Assembly: GCA_027064425.1 (NCBI GenBank)
Contig: JAMOPO010000003.1
Span: forward strand, 100,607-164,606
From: Methanobacteriota archaeon
GTDB taxonomy: Archaea; JAADCQ01; Methanopyri; Methanopyrales; Methanopyraceae
Direction of reading: 5' to 3'
DNA: 64,000 bases
The position numbers and the translations under genes were made by a program. Positions 18,687-45,661 of the stretch are shown piece after piece; positions within the stretch are counted from its first letter, which is position 1, and each line of letters begins with the position of its first letter. The notes under the pieces were generated by a model, which saw nothing but the letters and a program-made list of their open reading frames with translations, was not told the origin of the DNA and did no database searches.

Positions 18687-18764
18687 GGGCCGGCAGCTCA
18701 GTCTGGACAGAGCGCGGGCCTTCGGAGCCCGTGGTCCCGGGTTCAAATCCCGGCCGGCCCACCA
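18687..18764 (+). tRNA. tRNA-Arg (anticodon TCG), with encoded CCA and C at position 8
   Basis: The acceptor stem GGGCCGG pairs perfectly with CCGGCCC, followed by A73 and an encoded CCA. The D-arm stem is GCTC/GAGC, the anticodon stem CGGGC/GCCCG encloses the loop CTTCGGA with anticodon TCG, and the T-arm is CCGGG-TTCAAAT-CCCGG. No intron is present. Position 8 is C instead of the near-universal U. In M. kandleri, most tRNAs have C8, which the deaminase CDAT8 edits to U8 so that the U8-A14 tertiary pair can form; the same requirement is expected here. Confidence 0.97.
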
Positions 18765-18771
18765 GCCCGAA

Positions 18772-18792
18772 TCGTTACGAAGTCCGTAACGA
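18772..18792. repeat. Palindrome of the CGTTACG-N5-CGTAACG family (copy 1)
   Basis: TCGTTACG and CGTAACGA are perfect 8-base inverted arms around a 5-base spacer. It lies 8 bases after the tRNA and 4 bases before the next possible TTG start. Three more sites with the same arms and spacer occur in this window. It could be a dimeric protein site or an RNA hairpin. Confidence 0.8.
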
Positions 18793-28250: not shown

Positions 28251-28442
28251 ATGGCGAGCCAAAAGATGGTCGCGGCCGTCGTGGCTCACCTGCTCCCCTT
28301 CTTCATGGGCGGCGCCGGCATCTGCTTCCTGCTCCTCGCCTCCCTGCAGGACGATGAGGCGCTGCGGAGGCTGGGGCTCCTCCTGGTGATCCTCACCGGG
28401 CCGATATCGGTCGCGGTCTCCCTAGCCATCGTAGGGGGGTGA
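28251..28442 (+). CDS. Small membrane protein, unrecognised
   Basis: A 63-residue product with two hydrophobic helices (about residues 5-26 and 38-60) joined by a short charged turn (DDEALRR). ATG at 28251 is preceded by GGGGAGGTGA, a strong ribosome site, which supports expression; the GTG at 28245 lies inside that site. The stop overlaps the GTG start of the downstream regulator gene. No family recognised. Confidence 0.55.
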   Translation: MASQKMVAAVVAHLLPFFMGGAGICFLLLASLQDDEALRRLGLLLVILTGPISVAVSLAIVGG

Positions 28443-29434
28443 GCGGGCTGAACGTACGGGAGGAGCTGCTATCGGACCTGGAGGAGTTCCTGAGGTCAGG
28501 TGGGCACGAGGTCGTCCGGGTAGACCGCGCCTGCTTCGACCTCCTCGTGATCACGAGGGACGGGCGCTCCTTCATCGTCAAGGTGCTCACGAACGTGGAC
28601 GGGCTGCGGAAGGAGGTAGCGGAGGACCTCAAGGTGATCTCCCACTTCCTGGAGGCCGTGCCGGTTATCGTCGCGCTGCGTCGCCGGTCCGGCCCTCTGG
28701 AGCGCGGGGTGGTGTATCACCGGTACGAGATCCCCGTGATGGAGCCCATCACGTTCGCGAAGACCATCGAGGGCGAGCCGCCCAGGGCCGTGGCCGATCG
28801 GGGCGGGAAGTACGTCGAGGTCAGGGAGGAGGAGGTCGAGAGCGTCCGCGTGTCGAGCGTGCGGCGCCGGCAGCTGAAGCTGGAGGGTGGTCGGGTCAGT
28901 CTGGCCCGGGCCGAGGAGGCGGAGATCGAGGGCGTCCCGGTGCGCTTTCGGGTGCCGGAGCGCGTCGACACGGGCAAGGACCGGATGACGCGGTTCGAGC
29001 GCCGGGTGGCCAAGCACCTCGAGCGGATGGGCGCCGAGCGCACGGGCAAGGTTCGCCGGGCTCCCTTCGAGCTCCTGGCTAAGGACGGGGACACGGTCCT
29101 GGTGCAGTCGGAGGACGTGAGCAGCCGGGAGTCGATGGCCCTCCGGGACGTGGTTCAGGTCACGGGCTCGATCGGGTTCGTGGTCACGCGGAAGCGGCGC
29201 AAGCGCGCCTCGTGCCTGCCGACCATCGACCTGGAGACGCTGGAGGATCTGAAGGACATCGAGGACCTGAAGGAGTACCTGGAGGAGCACGACCCGTCGG
29301 AGAAGATCCGCGAGCTGGTCGAGGAGGCCGGGGTCACCTCGCCCAAGGAGATCGCGAGGCGCACGGGGCTCAGCGAGTCCGTGATCCGGGAGCTCCTCAG
29401 GCGCATGACCGCCGAAGGCGACCAAAAGTTTTAA
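28439..29434 (+). CDS. Archaeal HTH transcriptional regulator (COG1395-like)
   Basis: The 331-residue protein combines an N-terminal nuclease-fold-like region ([19 protein letters not shown]), a central domain, a second similar region near residues 185-245 and a C-terminal helix-turn-helix ([20 protein letters not shown]). This is the plan of the archaeal putative regulators grouped in COG1395. It sits directly upstream of the thermosome gene, and its last codons contain the thermosome promoter, so a regulatory link is possible but unproven. GTG start at 28439 overlaps the preceding stop. Confidence 0.75.
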
Positions 29435-29486: not shown

Positions 29487-31133
29487 ATGGCCATGCTAGC
29501 TGGTGACGGGCGGCAGGTCCTGATCCTGCCCGAGGGTTACCAGCGGTTCGTGGGTCGTGACGCGCAGCGGATGAACATCATGGCGGCGCGAGTCGTCGCC
29601 GAGACCGTGCGGACCACGCTCGGTCCGATGGGCATGGACAAAATGCTCGTCGACGAGATGGGCGACGTGGTCGTCACCAACGACGGCGTGACCATCCTCG
29701 AGGAGATGGACATCGAGCACCCAGCCGCCAAGATGGTCGTGGAGGTCGCGAAGACGCAGGAGGACGAGGTCGGTGACGGTACGACCACGGCCGTCGTGCT
29801 GGCCGGTGAGCTGCTGCACAAGGCCGAGGACCTGCTGCAGCAGGACATCCACCCGACCGTGATCGCGCGCGGCTTCCGGATGGCGGTCGAGAAGGCCGAG
29901 GAGATCCTGGAGGAGATCGCCGAGGAGATCGACCCGGACGACGAGGAGACGCTGAAGAAGATCGCGAAGACCGCGATGACCGGTAAGGGCGTCGAGAAGG
30001 CCCGAGACCACCTGGCCGAGCTGGTCGTGAGGGCCGTCAAGCAGGTGGCCGAGGAGGAGGATGACAAGATCGTCATCGACACGGACCACATCAAGCTGGA
30101 GAAGAAGGAGGGTGGCGGCCTAGAGGACACCGAGCTGGTCCAGGGTATGGTCATCGACAAGGAGCGAGTGCACCCGGGCATGCCGCGGCGGGTTGAGAAC
30201 GCCAAGATCGCCCTACTGAACTGCCCGATCGAGGTGAAGGAGACCGAGACGGACGCCGAGATCCGGATCACGGACCCGGAGCAGCTGCAGGCCTTCGTCG
30301 AAGAGGAGGAGAAGATGCTGAAGGAGATGGTGGACAAGATCGCCGAGACCGGCGCGAACGTGGTCTTCTGCCAGAAGGGTATCGACGACCTGGCCCAGCA
30401 CTACCTGGCGAAGAAGGGCATCCTGGCCGTCCGGCGCGTCAAGAAGTCCGACATGCAGAAGCTGGCTAGGGCCACCGGCGGTCGGATCGTGACCAACATC
30501 GACGACCTGAGCGAGGACGACCTAGGTGAGGCCGAGGTCGTCGAGGAGCGGAAGGTCGCGGGCGACAAGATGATCTTCGTCGAGGGCTGCAAGGACCCGA
30601 AGTCGGTCACCATCCTGATCCGCGGCGGTACGGAGCACGTCGTGGACGAGGCCGAGCGAGCCATCGAGGACGCGATCGGAGTCGTGGCCGCCGCGCTCGA
30701 GGACGGCAAGGTCGTGGCCGGCGGTGGCGCGCCAGAGATCGAGGTCGCCCGGCGGCTGAGGGACTACGCGGACAAGGTCGAGGGCCGCGAGCAGCTGGCG
30801 GTCGAGGCGTTCGCGGACGCGCTGGAGATCATCCCGCGGACGCTGGCCGAGAACAGCGGACTGGACCCGATCGACGTGCTGGTGCAGCTGCGAGCCAAGC
30901 ACGAGGAGGGTGACGTGACCGCCGGCGTCGACGTCTACGACGGCGAGATCAAGGACATGCTCGAGGAGGGCGTCGTCGAGCCACTGCGAGTGAAGACGCA
31001 GGCACTGGCGAGCGCCACCGAGGCGGCGGAGATGATCCTGCGGATCGACGACGTCATCGCCGCCCGGGAGCTGAGCAAGGAGGAGGAAGAGGAAGAGGAG
31101 GAGAGCGGCGGTAGCAGCAGCACCGAGTTCTAA
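29487..31133 (+). CDS. ths: Thermosome (group II chaperonin) subunit
   Basis: The 548-residue protein has the group II chaperonin signatures: [18 protein letters not shown] (residues 36-53 or so), [18 protein letters not shown], and [15 protein letters not shown], together forming the ATP site, with catalytic Asp in GDGTTT. The C-terminal tail is acidic with Gly/Ser ([14 protein letters not shown]). It forms the double-ring folding chamber with built-in lid. It follows a strong promoter, as expected for an abundant heat-related protein. ATG at 29487 (or 29493). Confidence 0.97.
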
Positions 31134-31170
31134 ACCCTCACCCCCTCACGCCCAAAACATTCTTCCCGCA

Positions 31171-31211
31171 GATCGTTACGAACCTCGTATCGTTATGGCT
31201 CTCATAACGAT
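31171..31211. repeat. Palindrome of the CGTTACG family with changed arms (copy 2) plus extra half-site
   Basis: ATCGTTATG and CATAACGAT form perfect 9-base inverted arms (31189-31197 and 31203-31211) around a 5-base spacer. Compared with the other copies, both arms carry matching changes (C to T and G to A). A further half-site GATCGTTACG is at 31171-31180, 18 bases before. It lies between the convergent thermosome and DUF131 genes. Confidence 0.8.
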
Positions 31212-31226: not shown

Positions 31227-31484
31227 CTAGAGCTCTTTCAGCCCCCACCACATCGCGATCGCGAGCACCATCAGCACCAGCGCCACCAGGGCGGCCAGCA
31301 GCGCCATCTTAGGCGAGCTGCCCACCACTATCGGGACCGGCCCGATTAGGATCACGCCGGCCCACTCCCCACGCCCCGACGCACTCTTAACCGCCATCAG
31401 CAGGATCGCCACCGCCGTCAGCAGCACCCCCAGCAGCGTAACCAGCAGCCCCACCCACACGAGATCCTCCAGCTTCACCCTCAT
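31227..31484 (-). CDS. DUF131 (TIGR00304) family membrane protein
   Basis: The 85-residue product has two to three membrane helices (about residues 8-32, 42-54, 58-80) and the conserved stretch GVILIGPVPIVVGSS between them, typical of the small archaeal family DUF131. Function is unknown. ATG start at 31484; the start is 20 bases from the divergent secF start. In several archaea such small membrane genes lie near sec genes, though I cannot confirm that here. Confidence 0.8.
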   Translation of the reverse strand: MRVKLEDLVWVGLLVTLLGVLLTAVAILLMAVKSASGRGEWAGVILIGPVPIVVGSSPKMALLAALVALVLMVLAIAMWWGLKEL

Positions 31485-43223: not shown

Positions 43224-45005
43224 ATGGCCAAGGTGAAGGGTGAGATCGTGAAGGTGGCGGGTCCGGTGGTCGAGGCGGTCGGCTGCGAGGGCGCGCGGAT
43301 GTACGAGGTCTTCCGGGTCGGCGACGAGGGCCTGATCGGAGAGGTGATCAACGTAGAGGGCGACCGGGTCACGATCCAGGTCTACGAGGAGACGGCCGGC
43401 CTCCAGCCGGGTGAGCCGGTCAAGGGCACCGGCGAGCTGCTGTCCGTGGAGCTGGGTCCGGGCCTGCTGACCCAGATCTTCGACGGCATCCAGCGCCCAC
43501 TGCCCAAGATTCGGAAGAAGGTGGGCGACTTCGTCGAGCGCGGAATCATGCTGCCGGCTCTGGACCGGAAGAAGAAGTGGGAGTTCACGCCGAAGGTGGA
43601 GGAGGGGGACAAGGTCGAGGAGGGCGACATCCTGGGGACCGTGCCCGAGACCGAGCTCATCGAGCACAAGATCATGGTCCCGCCCGGCATCTCGGGTGAG
43701 GTGATCGAGATCGCGGCCGATGGCGAGTACACGGTCGAGGAGACGATCGCGGTCATCGAGGACGAGGAGGGCGAGGAGCACGAGATTAAGATGTACCAGG
43801 AGTGGCCGGTGCGCCGGCCCCGGCCGTACAAGCGCAAGCTCGACCCGGAGGAGCCCCTGATCACGGGCCAGCGCGTGATCGACACGTTCTTCCCGGTCGC
43901 CAAGGGTGGTACCGCCGCCATCCCCGGCCCGTTCGGGAGCGGTAAGACGGTCACCCAGCAGCAGCTGGCGAAGTGGGCTGACGCGCAGGTCGTCGTGTAC
44001 ATCGGGTGCGGCGAGCGAGGTAACGAGATGACGGAGGTGCTGGAGGACTTCCCGGAGCTGGAGGACCCGCGCACGGGCAAGCCGCTGATGGAGCGCACGA
44101 TCCTGGTCGCGAACACCTCCAACATGCCGGTGGCCGCGCGGGAAGCGTGCATCTACACGGGCATCACCATGGCGGAGTACTACCGGGACATGGGCTACGA
44201 CGTGGCGCTGATGGCGGACTCCACGTCCCGGTGGGCCGAGGCCCTGCGAGAGATCTCCGGTCGACTGGAGGAGATGCCGGGTGAGGAGGGCTTCCCGGCG
44301 TACCTGGCGTCCCGGCTGGCCGAGTTCTACGAGCGGGCGGGCCGCGTCGTGTGCCTGGGTTCCGACGACCGGATCGGCTCCGTCACGGTCGTGGGCGCGG
44401 TGTCCCCACCGGGCGGCGACTTCTCGGAGCCGGTGACGCAGAACACGCTCAGGATCGTGAAGGTGTTCTGGGCGCTGGACTCCAAGCTGGCGGACCGACG
44501 GCACTTCCCGGCGATCAACTGGCTGCAGTCCTACTCGCTGTACCTGGACGACGTCGAGGACTGGTGGCACGAGAACGTGGGCAAGGACTGGCGGAAGCTG
44601 CGCGACGAGGCGATGGAGATCCTGCAGCGAGAGTCGGAGCTGGAGGAGATCGTCCAGCTGGTCGGACCGGACGCCCTGCCGGAGAGCGAGCGCCTGATCC
44701 TCGAGGTTGCCCGGATGATCCGCGAGGACTTCCTGCAGCAGAACGCGTTCCACGAGGTGGACACGTACTGCCCGCCGGAGAAGCAGTATGAGATGCTGAA
44801 GACGATCATCCACTTCAAGGAGCGCGCGGAGGAGGCCCTGGACAAGGGCGTGTCCATCGACGACATCCTGGAGATGGAGGTCATCGACGACATCGCCCGC
44901 ATGAAGGAGATCCCGAACGAGGAGGCGGTCGAGAAGATCAGGGAGATCCGGAAGAAGGTGGACAAGGAGTTCGACAAGCTCATCGAGGAGGCCGAGGCCT
45001 CCTAG
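43224..45005 (+). CDS. atpA: A-type ATP synthase catalytic subunit A
   Basis: The 593-residue protein has the P-loop GPFGSGKT near residue 235, the A-subunit non-homologous insert (about 110-200), [15 protein letters not shown], and [23 protein letters not shown]. It is the ATP-hydrolysing or synthesising subunit in the hexameric head. No intein is present. An in-frame TTG lies upstream at 43158 but would overlap atpF; ATG 43224 gives the family start ([15 protein letters not shown]). Subunit B, usually next, is absent; trmY follows instead. Confidence 0.97.
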
Positions 45006-45027
45006 GCCCCCCACGCCCCTCCCGCAT

Positions 45028-45046
45028 CGTTACGGGGGTCGTAACG
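45028..45046. repeat. Palindrome of the CGTTACG-N5-CGTAACG family (copy 3)
   Basis: CGTTACG and CGTAACG around a 5-base spacer, between the atpA stop and trmY. The last base of the right arm is the first base of the trmY GTG start. The arms can be extended outward (CCGCA against TGCGG) with one unpaired T, so an RNA hairpin would hide the start codon region. Confidence 0.82.
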
Positions 45047-45627
45047 TGCGGGAGTTCCTCGTGATCTTCAACGAGGCCCCCACCACCCCGGAGCGCGTCA
45101 AGCTGAAGGACCTCCCCGGCTCCGGCCGCTTCGACCTCGTGTGCCGCGTCACGACGCAGGCCCTGCTGTACTCCCACGGCGTGCGCACGAACTCGGTGGT
45201 GCACCTGCTCCTGCGCGGCCCGGACGACCCGCCCAAGCTGATCACGGTCACCGGGCGCCGGGTGCGGCGACTGTACCCCGACGAGCGGACCACGGCCATA
45301 CACCTGCGGCGCGCCTTAGCCGCCGAGCCCGAGACGGAGCCGCACCCCGGGTTCTACGTCCGCAGGATGGACCTGAAGGACTTCCTGAACGAGTTGAAGG
45401 GAGCCACGGTCTACTACCTCAGCGAGGATGGAAAGCCCCTTGAGGAGGTGGACCCCGAGGAGGACGCCGTCTTCGTGCTCGGGGACCACGAGGGTCCGAC
45501 CTCGGAGCAGGACGAACTACTGCGCAGACGGGCGGACTCCGTGATCTCGCTGGGGCCGATTCCTTACCACGCCGACCAGTGCATCGTGATCATCCACCGG
45601 TACCTCGACGTCAAAACCGAGTCTTGA
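45046..45627 (+). CDS. trmY: tRNA (pseudouridine(54)-N1)-methyltransferase TrmY
   Basis: The 193-residue SPOUT-fold protein matches TrmY: REFLVIFNEAPTT at the start, GRFDLVCRVTTQALLYSHGVR, VHLLLRGPDDPPKLITV, and the knot region FVLGDHEGPTSEQDELL followed by SLGPIPYHADQCIVIIHRYLD. It methylates pseudouridine 54 of archaeal tRNA in the T loop. GTG start at 45046 directly at the end of a palindrome. A second copy of the palindrome lies 15 bases after its stop, so the gene is bracketed. Confidence 0.92.
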   Translation: MREFLVIFNEAPTTPERVKLKDLPGSGRFDLVCRVTTQALLYSHGVRTNSVVHLLLRGPDDPPKLITVTGRRVRRLYPDERTTAIHLRRALAAEPETEPHPGFYVRRMDLKDFLNELKGATVYYLSEDGKPLEEVDPEEDAVFVLGDHEGPTSEQDELLRRRADSVISLGPIPYHADQCIVIIHRYLDVKTES

Positions 45628-45642
45628 GCGCCTTGGCCGGTA

Positions 45643-45661
45643 CGTTACGGACCCCGTAACG
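45643..45661. repeat. Palindrome of the CGTTACG-N5-CGTAACG family (copy 4)
   Basis: CGTTACG and CGTAACG around the spacer GACCC, whose outer bases can also pair, giving 8-base arms with a 3-base loop. It lies 15 bases downstream of the trmY stop and 74 upstream of the next start. A terminator hairpin, an operator, or a remnant of a small mobile palindrome are all possible. Confidence 0.8.

Follow-up and report, generated by a model that had tools for sequence, protein, structure and literature searches.

Palindromes at the atpA-trmY locus

The window (the whole stretch of 64,000 nucleotides that was analyzed) contains atpA, encoding the archaeal ATP synthase subunit A, followed by trmY, encoding tRNA (pseudouridine(54)-N1)-methyltransferase, with one copy of a palindrome behind each of the two genes (Table 1). 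An earlier note on this DNA had described both copies, and both proved exact at the positions given there, sharing their 7-base arms and having spacers of 5 bases each. The GTG start codon of trmY indeed opens with the last G of the upstream copy; the match to the TrmY family begins at residue 1 from this codon, and 15 bases separate the trmY stop codon from the downstream copy. Three further copies were located in the window, one behind a tRNA-Arg gene and two, overlapping, behind the thermosome gene.

Table 1. Genes, palindromes, and associated tracts in the window
Feature	Position	Strand	Basis or remark
tRNA-Arg gene	18687..18764	+	ARAGORN, Rfam RF00005
Palindrome 3' of tRNA-Arg	18773..18791	.	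Exact match, 37.4 bits, 8 nt past CCA
Thermosome gene	29487..31133	+	NCBIfam thermosome; double palindrome at its end
C-rich tract ACCCTCACCCCCTCACGCCCAAAACATTCTTCCCGCAGAT, thermosome end	31134..31173	+	Enriched class
Palindrome, first of overlapping pair	31174..31192	.	1 mismatch
Palindrome, second of overlapping pair	31191..31209	.	CGTTATG-GCTCT-CATAACG
DUF131 protein gene, convergent partner	31227..31460	-	Pfam PF01998; ends 17 nt from double palindrome
atpA, archaeal ATP synthase subunit A	43224..45005	+	NCBIfam TIGR01043; 45028 palindrome at its end
C-rich, G-poor 3'UTR tract GCCCCCCACGCCCCTCCCGCAT, atpA stop to palindrome	45006..45027	+	Enriched class
Palindrome after atpA	45028..45046	.	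CGTTACG-GGGGT-CGTAACG, exact match
GGGGGT inside palindrome, possible trmY Shine-Dalgarno	45034..45039	+	Sequence; speculative
trmY, tRNA (pseudouridine(54)-N1)-methyltransferase	45046..45627	+	NCBIfam NF002560
Palindrome after trmY	45643..45661	.	CGTTACG-GACCC-CGTAACG, exact; 15 nt past trmY stop

The spacer, which had been taken to be free in sequence, is constrained: its first base is mostly A and its last mostly T, extending the arms to 8 bases, and the refined consensus reads CGTTAYGA-N3-TCRTAACG with AAT/ATT flanks. Within the window, nine matches with at most three mismatches were found against 1.95 expected, a number equaled by none of 100 dinucleotide shuffles, and a position weight matrix (PWM) scan yielded five sites at 24 to 37 bits, with the next best at 9.2. 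The whole genome (G000; 1.54 Mb in 57 contigs) holds 20 exact copies, 52 with at most one mismatch, and 81 with at most two, while a reversed control pattern gave no match anywhere in it. The overlapping pair at 31174 to 31209 shares two bases (the copies being 17 bp apart) and fills part of the gap between two convergent genes.

In all five Methanopyrus species, trmY lies behind atpA, ATCGTTACG...CGTAACG is found at the junction, and the palindrome directly adjoins the start of trmY; elsewhere the gap has diverged. In this copy, the spacer is GGGGT in four of the species and AGGGG in the fifth. The atpA copy is thus present at the same place in every sister species, a comparison to which the earlier note had tied any functional role. 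The palindrome behind trmY is good in two of the five species (one of them G003); in AV19 and G001 it is decayed and lies within a trmY that has become longer, and in G004 it is gone. With the upstream copy found in five species and the downstream copy good in only two, and with the same element present behind dozens of unrelated genes, the view that trmY is bracketed as a unit was not supported; the bracket is incidental, and each copy belongs to the gene ending before it, atpA or trmY.

These data also bear on the suggestion that the two copies are the ends of a small mobile unit that brought trmY to a position behind atpA in place of atpB. While trmY is flanked by two copies, as such a unit would be, the atpA-trmY order is kept in five species, the downstream copy is variable, and nothing beyond the palindrome itself is common to the copies of an element that recurs behind dozens of genes, making this explanation hardly credible. 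Moreover, atpB sits elsewhere in the genome. The G000 atpB gene (C15:304151-306358; L191, L192) is interrupted in frame by an intein that carries LAGLIDADG and intein-splicing domains. Extragenic palindromes of the REP/BIME type resemble the Methanopyrus element in being intergenic, in lying behind genes, and in numbering dozens to hundreds of copies. Unlike those, however, the Methanopyrus copies have only the palindrome in common, keep a fixed spacing from CCA, and occur at every checked tRNA gene; with alignment columns beyond +22 at background level across 71 tRNA sites, no sign of REP/BIME or MITE descent was seen.

Placement behind stable-RNA and protein genes

Placement was counted in the window and in 457 kb of sequence surrounding the sites, with genes called by ARAGORN and a codon-model gene finder. 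Although this sequence is about 89% genic and 10.6% intergenic, 73 of the 76 PWM-scored copies were intergenic (binomial p ~ 4e-67), and the motif is therefore far from being as frequent inside genes as between them, a distinction on which the earlier note had also made a functional role depend. As many as 63% of the sites lie within 25 nt of the 3' end of an upstream gene, compared with 11% of random intergenic positions; near gene starts, sites were not enriched (21% versus 28% of random intergenic positions).

At tRNA genes, a palindrome lies 7 to 13 nt past the CCA end of 28 of 28 tRNA genes in G000 and of 28 of 28 in Methanopyrus kandleri AV19, most commonly at a distance of 8 or 10 nt, with scores of 13.7 to 41.8 bits (99% null, -3.3). 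Unbiased tRNA counts come from these two genomes only, since in G001, G003, and G004 the tRNA loci had been chosen for holding the motif, a selection bias that also applies to the ortholog table. Four ARAGORN calls with neither a CCA end nor the motif, one in G000 (L039, not among the Rfam matches) and three in G003, were set aside as doubtful. Behind its copy, the tRNA-Lys gene (L130) seemingly has a second, degenerate half-site array. Other stable-RNA genes are likewise followed by palindromes, at 14 nt (5S rRNA), 17 nt (SRP RNA), 86 to 278 nt (16S rRNA), and 136 nt (23S rRNA). At three contig ends of G000 (L049, L059, and L069), palindromes and then a protein gene, instead of 23S, come after the 3' end of 16S, so that 16S and 23S appear to be unlinked in this genome.

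A motif CGTTA(N)9TAACG has been reported about 10 bp downstream of about half of the AV19 tRNA genes, where it was guessed to be a signal for tRNA 3' maturation (BMC Genomics 2017; PMC5217627). Its palindrome, genus, and tRNA-downstream position are those described here, and the pattern CGTTA-N9-TAACG was recovered in 34 and 50 copies, against 0 for the control. New are the presence at all checked tRNA genes, behind other stable RNAs and protein genes, and in five species, as well as the extended consensus, the C-rich partner tract described below, and evidence for constraint at the level of DNA rather than of RNA pairs.

About 34 protein genes of G000 are also followed by the palindrome, among them atpA, trmY, the thermosome gene, mcrB, mcrA, the genes for ribosomal S15, L7Ae, and S10, purM, truD, a polyferredoxin gene most like FwdF, and genes for several exported proteins. 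Across 92 gene ends, the distance from stop codon to palindrome has a sharp floor at 14 nt. In the window, which offers an unbiased sample, a site lies no more than 70 nt from the gene end at only 5 of 67 genes; the palindrome therefore represents one class of gene end, and most protein genes must end otherwise. The stretch between stop codon and palindrome has a composition of its own, with C at 0.50 and G at 0.20, compared with 0.34 and 0.33 at palindrome-free ends (p = 3e-11 in G000), and a C-rich, G-poor tract was also found in the other four Methanopyrus species (p = 1e-12). The tract is unstructured. The word CACGCC occurs at 11 of 34 palindrome-bearing CDS ends versus 5 of 122 other ends, and recurrent words are CCCCTCACGCCCC in G000 and CCCTCCC in the other species. 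At tRNA genes the C-rich tract is absent, and it is the folded tRNA that immediately precedes the palindrome.

Present in five of five Methanopyrus species, the palindrome occurs with at most one mismatch in 9, 15, 38, and 50 copies in the four genomes other than G000, while 36 other archaea contain 0 to 2 such copies each, so that the signal was not seen outside Methanopyrus in this set. Among 84,980 species genomes, the 21-bp form has one recurrent site outside Methanopyri MAGs. In 11 Halorubrum records (L199, L203, L205, L206, L208, L212, L214, L216, L218, L219, and L222), the gap separating carA from an Lrp/AsnC gene of divergent orientation holds one copy of TCGTTACGANNNTCGTAACGA per record. 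This copy is a candidate autoregulatory operator, and judging from its location, sequences of this kind may serve as Lrp/AsnC-type sites.

DNA site, RNA hairpin, and other readings

Across the 71 tRNA sites, GTT and AAC of the half-sites are nearly invariant and position 6 is C or T, with the two half-sites varying mostly independently. Read in the sense direction, the sites have more C.A mismatches (34 cells) than G.U wobbles (24), the opposite of what selection for RNA pairing would produce; pairing is in excess at pair 6/14 alone (p about 0.009), and the mixture of species can account for this. Folding was predicted at 37, 85, and 98 C with tRNAs as a control, using extrapolated energies and ignoring high intracellular salt, and by this measure the motif RNA is folded at 98 C at none of the 71 sites (2 of 71 when flanks of 10 to 12 nt are included), compared with 70 of 71 tRNAs. 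Conservation is stronger in the proximal half-site than in the distal (28 versus 55 mismatches, p = 0.004), and the proximal half-site more often has its AAT flank (52 versus 11 of 71), so that the element is directional relative to the gene. Since the sites show no conserved pairing and predictions have the RNA stem melting at 98 C, a DNA-level site for a dimer appears likelier than an RNA hairpin. The suggestion that a hairpin hides the trmY start fares no better, as its stem is predicted to be unfolded at 85 to 98 C.

An RNA hairpin (CGUUACGA...UCGUAACG) might still stop the polymerase or act as a signal for cutting or protecting 3' ends, the tRNA maturation proposal of 2017 (PMC5217627) being one form of this idea. 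The symmetry permits pairing, it is the sense-oriented proximal half that is better conserved, and AV19 RNA-seq has 3' processing first (PMC3695527). Given that most pairs lack covariation beyond column composition, that C.A exceeds G.U, and that tRNAs are predicted to remain folded at temperatures at which this stem is not, we consider the hairpin unlikely; a tRNA-specific signal, moreover, would not be expected behind mRNAs, SRP, and rRNA genes. A different possibility is that a chromosome protein, either architectural or a topoisomerase (e.g., topoisomerase V, which is exclusive to Methanopyrus), binds the palindrome at gene ends and there removes positive supercoils or establishes a boundary in the chromatin, much as gyrase binds BIMEs, with termination being a side effect or absent. 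The positions at gene ends and between convergent genes would suit such a protein, as would the very active genes concerned (tRNA, mcrB, mcrA, atpA, ribosomal protein, and thermosome genes) and the weak AsnC-like helix-turn-helix (HTH) match of topoisomerase V in five species. The tight CCA spacing and the 14-nt floor behind stop codons, however, point to the transcript end, and a text search of the topoisomerase V-DNA structure paper turned up neither a sequence preference nor a palindrome, for which reasons this reading, too, seems quite improbable.

We regard it as very unlikely that the palindrome is the operator of an ordinary regulator, for example of the Lrp/AsnC type, controlling the gene that follows (here, trmY). 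Such a role would match the 5-3-5 geometry that the palindrome shares with Lrp/AsnC-type sites and the presence of the same 21-bp palindrome once per genome at the carA-Lrp/AsnC gap of the 11 Halorubrum records, but the Methanopyrus sites lie behind genes and not at their starts, and no promoter-like A+T-rich sequence precedes trmY. Furthermore, neither a search for the AsnC-type HTH domain nor a comparison with the Halorubrum protein yielded a full-length Lrp relative in Methanopyrus, the domain matches including topoisomerase V, PheS-like, and HTH-regulator-like proteins. In the window, a 331-amino-acid protein encoded upstream of the thermosome gene (28439-29434) has a weak C-terminal winged HTH (PF13412, E 2.6e-5) and is a possible regulator.

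A putative factor-dependent terminator

Archaeal transcription termination is described as driven by U-tracts, with the nuclease FttA (aCPSF1) as a factor. FttA is encoded in all five Methanopyrus species, and the sites studied here share with that system their location at gene ends; they differ in having no U-tract and, instead, a C-rich tract plus a DNA palindrome. No T-rich columns follow the motif at the 71 tRNA sites, and a T5 run within 120 nt of the gene end was found at 0 of 44 convergent and 0 of 18 tRNA ends, which does not fit an archaeal U-tract terminator. Nor do the sites fit a bacterial-type intrinsic terminator, as the U-tract is missing and the hairpin is predicted to be unfolded at 98 C at 71 of 71 sites. 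A search of titles and abstracts in openly available literature on Methanopyrus terminators and tRNA yielded no paper that proposes the palindrome as a terminator. The TFIIS-type zinc ribbon of TFS (PF01096) was found in none of the five Methanopyrus genomes, while it was present in four control archaea, in agreement with PMC5715097; Methanopyrus has been cited as the sole archaeon without TFS. The loss of TFS, already recognized for M. kandleri, is thus genus-wide.

From its placement and from the constraint on its sequence, we infer that the palindrome probably forms the DNA part of a Methanopyrus transcription terminator that is sequence-specific and dependent on a factor, with both termination and a dedicated protein forming part of that inference. 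Of the suggestions in the earlier note, a site for a dimeric DNA-binding protein, here putative, and a mark for the end of the message are supported. A two-fold symmetric protein would bind GAATCGTTAYGA-N3-TCRTAACGATT and block RNA polymerase arriving from upstream, and the stalled polymerase would be released with the help of the nascent RNA, in the form of the tRNA fold where a tRNA gene ends and of the C-rich tract, to which FttA perhaps binds, where a protein gene ends. With TFS missing, a blocked polymerase would be beyond rescue by TFS-stimulated transcript cleavage. Between convergent genes, a single site could serve both directions. A more far-reaching version, in which a dedicated DNA-binding roadblock protein and a C-rich transcript signal end stable-RNA genes and many highly used protein genes, having replaced the U-tract in connection with the loss of TFS, is put forward tentatively, as possible rather than probable.

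A close parallel is with the roadblock terminators of RNA polymerase I (Reb1/Nsi1 and TTF-I), in which a stable hairpin and a pyrimidine-rich tract are combined with a roadblock site 15 bp beyond the stop (PMC12366685). Both systems have a sequence-specific DNA site just past the transcript; in Methanopyrus, the site lies past the mature RNA or the stop codon, i.e., at the predicted transcript end, and has before it either a C-rich tract, behind a CDS, or a folded tRNA. The polymerase I terminators differ in being eukaryotic, in serving rDNA, and in having a longer offset than the Methanopyrus tRNA spacing. This spacing is the chief argument against the roadblock reading: given that eukaryotic roadblocks halt the polymerase about 15 bp ahead of their site (PMC12366685), a simple roadblock of that offset, with 7 to 13 nt between CCA and site, would trim 2 to 8 nt off the tRNA, unless the archaeal offset were shorter or a few 3' bases, including CCA, were re-added. 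For Haloferax, a downstream motif with a bound protein has been suggested as a minor roadblock (PMC7237163). In Methanopyrus, gene ends lack U-tracts and the sites studied here lack RNA hairpins predicted to be stable at growth temperature, and the palindrome together with the C-rich tract would offer a concrete, testable answer to how such genes end: sequence-specific roadblock termination outside eukaryotic rDNA.

At atpA/trmY and at mcrB/mcrDC, which has a like layout (a strongly used gene, the palindrome, and then lesser genes), the site lies within a gene cluster and leaves little room for a promoter behind it. It is therefore probably a partial terminator there, lowering the expression of the next gene, and graded termination would be predicted within both clusters. 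Internal terminators are known to grade expression within operons of Methanococcus maripaludis (PMC10450193). The GGGGGT inside the atpA palindrome may double as the ribosome-binding site of trmY, in which case the trmY message would contain the palindrome and arise by read-through. A separate observation concerns L050:7891-7966, where the palindrome behind mcrA overlaps an apparent TATA box and start region (TTTTTAAG) ahead of the next gene.
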